Below, piece after piece: positions 17,661 to 41,783 of a stretch of DNA of 64,000 nucleotides. Position 1 is the stretch's first letter, and every line of letters starts with the position of its first letter. This stretch comes from Mucilaginibacter sp. (GTDB taxonomy: Bacteria > Bacteroidota > Bacteroidia > Sphingobacteriales > Sphingobacteriaceae), in contig NZ_JANYGH010000073.1 of NCBI RefSeq assembly GCF_025362475.1, positions 1 through 64,000 of the forward strand. Reading direction: 5' to 3'. The position numbers and the translations under genes were made by a program. The notes beneath the pieces are model-generated. The model was not told the DNA's origin. It ran no database searches and saw only the letters and a program-made list of their open reading frames with translations.

Positions 17661-17750
17661 GTCATCCTGAACGCAGTGAAGGATCTATTATTCACCATGC
17701 TTCTTGGCCCTGTAAATCTGGGAATAGATCCTTCGTGCCTCAGGATGACA
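17661..17750 (-). repeat. Dispersed palindromic element, copy 1 (core inverted relative to copies 2 and 3, arms partly decayed)
   Basis: GTCATCCTGAACGCAGTGAAGGATCT ... AGATCCTTCGTGCCTCAGGATGACA; reverse complement of the core, ATTCCCAGATTTACAGGGCCAAGAAGCATGGTGAATAAT, matches the core of copy 3. Confidence 0.88.
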
Positions 17751-25820: not shown

Positions 25821-25906
25821 GTTTACAGCTGTCTGAGAAGTAAAAGAAACCGTCATTGGAGGTATAAAATCCGGTGTACGATTAAGGGCGAAAAATAAAA
25901 AGGTTT

Positions 25907-25998
25907 GTCATTCTGAACGCAGTGAAGGATCTATTCGCAGACTTTGCAGGGCGAAGGTGCATTGCGAATAACAGATCCTTCACTGCGTTCAGGATGAC
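25907..25998 (+). repeat. Dispersed palindromic element, copy 2
   Basis: Arms GTCATTCTGAACGCAGTGAAGGATCT / AGATCCTTCACTGCGTTCAGGATGAC (one G-U/mismatch); core ATTCGCAGACTTTGCAGGGCGAAGGTGCATTGCGAATAAC. Confidence 0.92.
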
Positions 25999-41572: not shown

Positions 41573-41691
41573 TTTGATGTGCAGATTTCAGATGTGCAAA
41601 TTAAGTTGCATAACGGGGAGTTGCTGAAACCATGTCTTAGAATGGTAAAATCCTGAGAACACTGAAAGGGGAATGACGTTTTGAAAAGTTT

Positions 41692-41783
41692 GTCATCCTG
41701 AACGCAGTGAAGGATCTAATCACAGACTTTACAGGGCGAAGAAGCATGGCGAATAGCAGATCCTTCACTGCGTTCAGGATGAC
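41692..41783 (+). repeat. Dispersed palindromic element, copy 3
   Basis: Perfect 26-bp arms GTCATCCTGAACGCAGTGAAGGATCT / AGATCCTTCACTGCGTTCAGGATGAC; core AATCACAGACTTTACAGGGCGAAGAAGCATGGCGAATAGC. Confidence 0.94.

Follow-up and report, generated by a model that had tools for sequence, protein, structure and literature searches.

The intergenic palindrome at 41692-41783 of the window, that is, the whole 64,000-nt stretch of Mucilaginibacter sp. DNA analysed here, raises the question of what kind of element it is and what moves it; a preliminary description had offered a non-autonomous mobile repeat (REP/MITE-like), a transcript-end or processing signal, or a structured RNA. Three copies lie exactly where that description placed them, at 17661-17750, 25907-25998 and 41692-41783. 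As described, the two arms of copy 3 are identical over 26 nt and inverted relative to each other (28 nt counting the flanking TT/AA), and copy 2 carries a single arm mismatch, GTCATT versus GTCATC. The copies and their parts are as follows.

41692..41783, + strand: copy 3, complete A/A dimer, 92 bp
41692..41717, + strand: copy 3 left arm A, a predicted hairpin unit of GTC + ATCCT-GA-AC(GCA)GT-GA-AGGAT + CT
41718..41757, + strand: copy 3 asymmetric conserved 40-nt spacer, in the CAGACT...GAATA orientation
41758..41783, - strand: copy 3 right arm A, inverted
41636..41678, + strand: degenerate outer module (...TAAAATCC...CTGAAAGGGGAATGACG) adjoining copy 3; the module is conserved across copies and dispersed
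25907..25998, + strand: copy 2, complete A/A dimer, 92 bp, with the GTCATT left arm and the GTCATC right arm
25933..25972, + strand: copy 2 spacer
25849..25906, + strand: degenerate outer module on the left of copy 2 (CCGTCATTGGAGGTATAAAATCCGG...)
17661..17750, - strand: copy 1, B/A dimer, 90 bp, with the spacer orientation opposite to that of copies 2 and 3
17661..17686, + strand: copy 1 arm A
17687..17726, - strand: copy 1 spacer, the - strand reading ...CCCAGATTTACAGGGCCAAGAAGCATGGTGAATAA
17727..17750, - strand: copy 1 arm B (GTCATCCTGAG(GCA)CGAAGGATCT), on the CAGACT side of the spacer

Hairpin dimers in the window and in the whole genome

A 26-nt degenerate arm pattern matches the window five times, against 0.02 matches expected, and the fold of a complete 98-nt copy is much stronger than those of its shuffles (z about -10.9). 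On the right, copy 1 has a variant arm of its own kind, 24 nt long (GTCATCCTGAGGCACGAAGGATCT), which is met again throughout the genome; we had considered it a decayed arm A and abandoned that reading when arm B turned out to recur. The sequence of arm A is GTCATCCTGAACGCAGTGAAGGATCT, with a varying loop, and that of arm B is GTCATCCTGAGGAACGAAGGATCT.

The genome-wide search proposed in the preliminary description was run on the 6.45-Mb assembly (79 contigs), and its copy counts are lower bounds, the loci having been sampled. A 99-nt query gave 40 full-length best matches at 89-100% identity, and the arm pattern (up to three mismatches) was found at 141 places, against none for the reversed control. 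Reading of the sampled loci yielded 70 dimers, in which the element consists of short hairpin units paired head-to-head around the conserved 40-nt spacer. At least 68 dimers in these loci carry this same spacer (31 A/A, 28 B/A, 7 B/B and 2 A/B), so that the ~40-bp core is indeed conserved, as had been claimed, and the count of three copies was far too low. A genome with these three copies alone, or with further copies lacking the core, had been named as evidence against a mobile or functional family; the search instead returned many further copies in which both arms and core are kept. Among exact 92-mers, pairwise identity is 95% for the arms and 85% for the spacers. In 28 of the 30 mixed dimers arm B stands on the CAGACT side of the spacer, which indicates that whole dimers, and not separate arms joined afterwards, are what multiplies.

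Many dimers are flanked by two further modules in this genome: on one side CGTCATTGCGAG..TAAAATCC..CTGAAGGAGAAATGACG followed by an AT-rich joint, and on the other an AT-rich joint and then CGTCATNGGTAGGNACGAAGCAATC. The first of these was scored at 42 places, some of them beside other GTCAT repeats. By the thresholds used, 30 of the 70 dimers have neither module beside them, and the 92-bp dimer is thus separable from both.

Other repeats share this genome. A dispersed module, CGTCATTGCGAGTTTTAAAATCCGGGGGACACTGAAGGAGAAATGACG, often adjoins the 92-bp dimer and also other GTCAT repeats (for example at L209-L235; degenerate in the window at 41636-41678 and 25849-25906). A second dimer family (II) is 72 bp long with arms GTCATCCTGAGCCTGTCGAAGGAT (for example L026 from 437, L042, L058 and L069), and the loops of its GCCTGTC arms are not of the GNA/GNNA type. 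A third (III), with arms CGTCATTGCGAGGNACGAAGCAATC, a CGTC foot and a CCC-type tail, occurs for example at L219 and L224 and in a relative at L158, and is closer to the published CGTC families. In a related species, dimers stand in tandem arrays with a spacing of ~120 bp (G072:C24:55187-56578).

Pairing within and between arms

Each 24-26-nt arm has a GTC foot, a 5-bp stem ATNCT/AGNAT and usually a GNA or GNNA loop; above the five Watson-Crick pairs come a GA/GA step, one or two further pairs and mostly a 3-nt loop. Stem positions 6 and 22, which the search pattern left free for the covariation test, form Watson-Crick pairs (C-G, G-C or T-A) in 65 of 68 arms from other species of the genus, against 25.3 expected if the two positions were independent. 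The 26 dimers whose arms differ at position 6 separate the two ways in which the element could pair: the within-arm pairs are kept in 49 of 52 cases, whereas pairing between the arms at the equivalent inner position is retained in 1 of 26. What is conserved is therefore the small hairpins and not the long palindrome. By these comparisons the long palindrome of copy 3 is a by-product of two equal arms, and the internal hairpin predicted for its left arm is derived from the covariation and the loop statistics.

The loops were examined at any length from 3 to 10 nt. In 331 of 385 arms overall (147/176 in this genome, 88/110 in the genus and 96/99 in other taxa, the last set being biased by its search pattern) the loop is GNA or GNNA with one or more Watson-Crick pairs closing it, and shuffles of the same loop letters gave at most 12 such loops in each set; about 14% of arms lack such a loop. 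GNA/GNNA loops with G-C pairs form extraordinarily stable DNA minihairpins (PMC4686876). Under standard DNA folding parameters a lone arm reaches -1.6 kcal/mol, no better than shuffles, in a predicted structure with the GA/GA step and the loop unpaired; the argument for the stability of a lone arm therefore comes from the published minihairpin data and the covariation, not from folding energy. The loops GATA and GACA, which occur among the arms, are GNNA but not GNRA and would suit DNA better than RNA.

Distribution and genomic setting

The arm pattern was found in 96 of 150 genomes of the genus, at 0-120 places each and with all reversed controls at zero, although arms within the genus are related by descent and these counts are not independent events. 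Exact A/A dimers were found in 43 stretches of other genomes, from Hymenobacter, a Saprospiraceae MAG, Bacteroidales, Mucilaginibacter, Legionella and one betaproteobacterial MAG, each lineage with a spacer of its own. The arm thus recurs almost letter for letter between Bacteroidota and Legionella while the spacers differ. The L. quinlivanii isolate genome holds 69 arm matches, which makes contamination an unlikely cause there; occurrences in single MAGs are to be read with more caution. The earlier remark that GTCATnCTGA-type repeats are common in Bacteroidetes therefore holds (Hymenobacter, Saprospiraceae, Bacteroidales) and extends beyond the phylum, to Legionella. The exact dimer was found in none of the viral contigs of IMG/VR, plasmids held nothing like the consensus of this repeat family, an Rfam search of the window matched no family, and a literature text search with the arm sequence retrieved no description of the repeat.

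Copy 3 sits in the convergent gap between a response-regulator gene and comF. This gap is syntenic in 17 relatives, 15 of which have no arm there and two of which have different dimers with other spacers. G083 and G087 are syntenic, with ~88% identity in aligned blocks; at orthologous sites they have several elements in common but differ in others. The comparison of related genomes for empty sites thus bore out variable presence per locus but yielded no exact empty site with a clean junction: between G083 and G087, elements are shared or lost inside diverged intergenic DNA, the closest relatives being too diverged between genes for such a junction to be seen.

Sixty-six copies in this genome could be classified by their gaps, of which 27 are convergent, 35 codirectional and 4 divergent. 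Divergent gaps are depleted relative to 30 neighboring gaps (p about 1e-4, with crude ORF calls and a small background), and the median distance from a stop codon is 94 bp. In codirectional gaps the spacer runs with the flanking genes by 25:10 (n = 35, p = 0.017), a bias that pure insertion does not predict and that counts against an insertion-only model; replication strand is possibly its cause. The dimer with its spacer is the multiplying unit, its copies lie mostly 3' of genes, and its presence at a given locus differs by species.

The ends of the element are complementary for 2 nt beyond GTC and are not duplicated, and this dinucleotide varies by lineage; the flanks examined show no consistent target duplication. 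We also considered insertion into longer palindromic targets and dropped the idea, since just two flanking bases are complementary above expectation, a few single cases aside. At L177 and L192 the flanks of the dimer extend the palindrome by 10 and 15 bases, as if it had been inserted or extended within an existing palindrome.

Candidate mobilizing enzymes, rival explanations and known repeat systems

The preliminary description suggested a RAYT (REP-associated tyrosine transposase) as the mobilizer, as for classical REP/REPIN elements, with which the present dimers share two inverted hairpin units at a conserved spacing that multiply as a unit. The genome does encode four Y1_Tnp proteins, one of which is related to RAYTs but scores below the NCBIfam cut-off. 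However, no arm lies near any of the four genes. The surroundings of 34 Y1 genes, 112 kb in total, contain no arm of any type, whereas 106 kb of sequence surrounding comF genes contains several. Across 150 genomes the number of arms does not correlate with the number of Y1 matches (rho 0.09, p 0.30), and four genomes with 6-14 arms have no Y1 match. The RAYT relative itself (L034, G000:C13, 1375-1914) is flanked on both sides by a different, identical 29-bp palindrome, ACTTACGAAGTTTTAAAAACTTCGTAAGT, at 1317-1345 and 1943-1971, which also occurs at six other sampled intergenic sites. In Bacteroidetes, TnpA-REP subclass 2.6 has atypical palindromes without GTAG that flank their own transposase gene (PMC6006769). 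The RAYT relative with ACTTACGAAGTTTTAAAAACTTCGTAAGT looks like a REPtron of this Bacteroidetes type serving another repeat; the present arms resemble subclass 2.6 in having atypical palindromes without GTAG in the same phylum, but it is ACTTACGAAGTTTTAAAAACTTCGTAAGT and not these arms that flanks the RAYT relative. The foot, moreover, is GTC here, not the GTAG or GTGG of the classical RAYT-linked REPs. RAYTs are able to act in trans, so distance is not decisive, yet on the combined evidence we regard mobilization by a host RAYT as unlikely.

IS110 was likewise considered as a correlate and rejected, being absent from the arm-rich genomes G083 (89 arms) and G072 (38 arms); arms lie near just 1 of 30 IS110 loci, and among the Y1 and IS110 loci examined there is no transposase association. 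In Neisseria, the dRS3 repeat is an integration or recombination site for phage or an IS110-type recombinase. That the present element serves as such a site would be consistent with the clustering of arms with other GTCAT repeats and with the identity of dRS3 and the Neisseria CGTC-1 repeats (PMC3733652), which likewise are CGTC-tagged hairpin units in intergenic mosaic arrays with other repeats, though CGTC-1 has its own stem and loop (a comparison made from the text of that paper alone). Given the IS110 counts, and with the exact dimer missing from IMG/VR and the plasmids holding nothing like the family consensus, we consider this explanation very improbable.

If the element were a MITE, derived by deletion from a DDE insertion sequence and with the arms as its terminal inverted repeats, this would account for long inverted ends, a fixed length and dispersed copies; however, end-to-end complementarity is broken in mixed dimers while the internal hairpin of each arm is kept, the same arm accompanies unrelated spacers in different lineages, no ORF-sized insert separates arm pairs among the own-genome matches listed, and the flanks lack a consistent target duplication. 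We therefore give this origin little credence, and of the original REP/MITE-like proposal the REP-like part stands (paired hairpin units, intergenic, 3' of genes, with species-specific presence), while the MITE part is made less likely by conservation inside each arm. An RNA element under selection at transcript 3' ends, as a terminator, stabilizer or processing site, would agree with the position 3' of genes at a median of 94 bp from the stop codon, the avoidance of divergent gaps, the 25:10 orientation with transcription and the strong fold of the whole element. Against it, a T-run (at least 5 in 8 nt) adjoins the hairpin at just 7 of 140 ends, fewer than intrinsic terminators would call for, the GATA and GACA loops suit DNA GNNA and not RNA GNRA, there is no Rfam match, and the patchy presence at orthologous loci with species-specific spacers speaks against a conserved RNA role. 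A role of this kind thus appears doubtful: the proposed transcript-end signal retains its location 3' of genes but lacks the T-runs and the Rfam match, and any effect of the element on transcripts is probably secondary.

The closest published relatives are the CGTC/TGTC-tagged hairpin repeats that Di Nocera et al. (2013) described in five phyla, including Bacteroidetes and Proteobacteria (PMC3733652). These are mostly head-to-head dimers with conserved spacers, often heterodimers, intergenic and 3' of genes, without a transposase link; their stems are 8-9 bp, their loops 4-5 nt and their tails CCA-like, and Legionella is absent from the main text (PMC3733652). The present arms share the foot (TGTC in this genus and most Bacteroidota, CGTC in Legionella), a stem starting with complementary AT (ATNCT/AGNAT, with Watson-Crick covariation), head-to-head dimers and heterodimers (68 head-to-head dimers, 30 of them pairing A with B), and an intergenic position 3' of genes without a link to Y1 or IS110 transposase loci. 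They differ in having a 5-bp stem, a non-Watson-Crick GA/GA step, a short upper stem and a GNA/GNNA loop in place of the longer stem and 4-5-nt loop, and in ending in CT (arms A and B) where the published tail is mostly CCA. We therefore file the family as a variant beside the four published CGTC families, not as a proven member, that works like a REP dimer.

Taken together, we think it likely that the element is a non-autonomous repeat of the REP type, in or beside the CGTC/TGTC-tagged REP superfamily, in which two tagged DNA hairpins form a head-to-head dimer and a lineage-specific spacer keeps the distance between them constant. In the mechanism we propose, a putative trans-acting enzyme, which none of the candidates examined here matches, would recognize the arm in a folded, single-stranded DNA form, such as might arise on the lagging strand or by cruciform extrusion, and would copy the dimer into new intergenic sites. 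More speculatively, these repeats might be cross-phylum mobile DNA hairpins, in which a GTC-footed, DNA-specific GNA/GNNA minihairpin is the recognized unit and its head-to-head pairs are multiplied by an enzyme that acts on single strands and is distinct from RAYTs and from every transposase linked to REPs to date; we put this forward as a tentative idea.

What this analysis adds is the finding that mixed dimers covary within their arms, the GNA/GNNA rule for loops, the recurrence of a single arm in different phyla while the spacers change, and a clearly negative result for RAYTs in the genus. The frequency of mixed dimers among CGTC-type REPs has been called unexplained (PMC3733652); the conservation of each arm as a hairpin in its own right suggests an answer, since the members of a pair then have no need to match. 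CGTC-type REPs are widespread, yet without a known mobilizing enzyme, and the arm defines a property by which a candidate might be recognized, namely binding to a GNA/GNNA DNA hairpin with a GTC foot. That Bacteroidota and Legionella have nearly identical arms but different spacers strongly constrains any model of these repeats.
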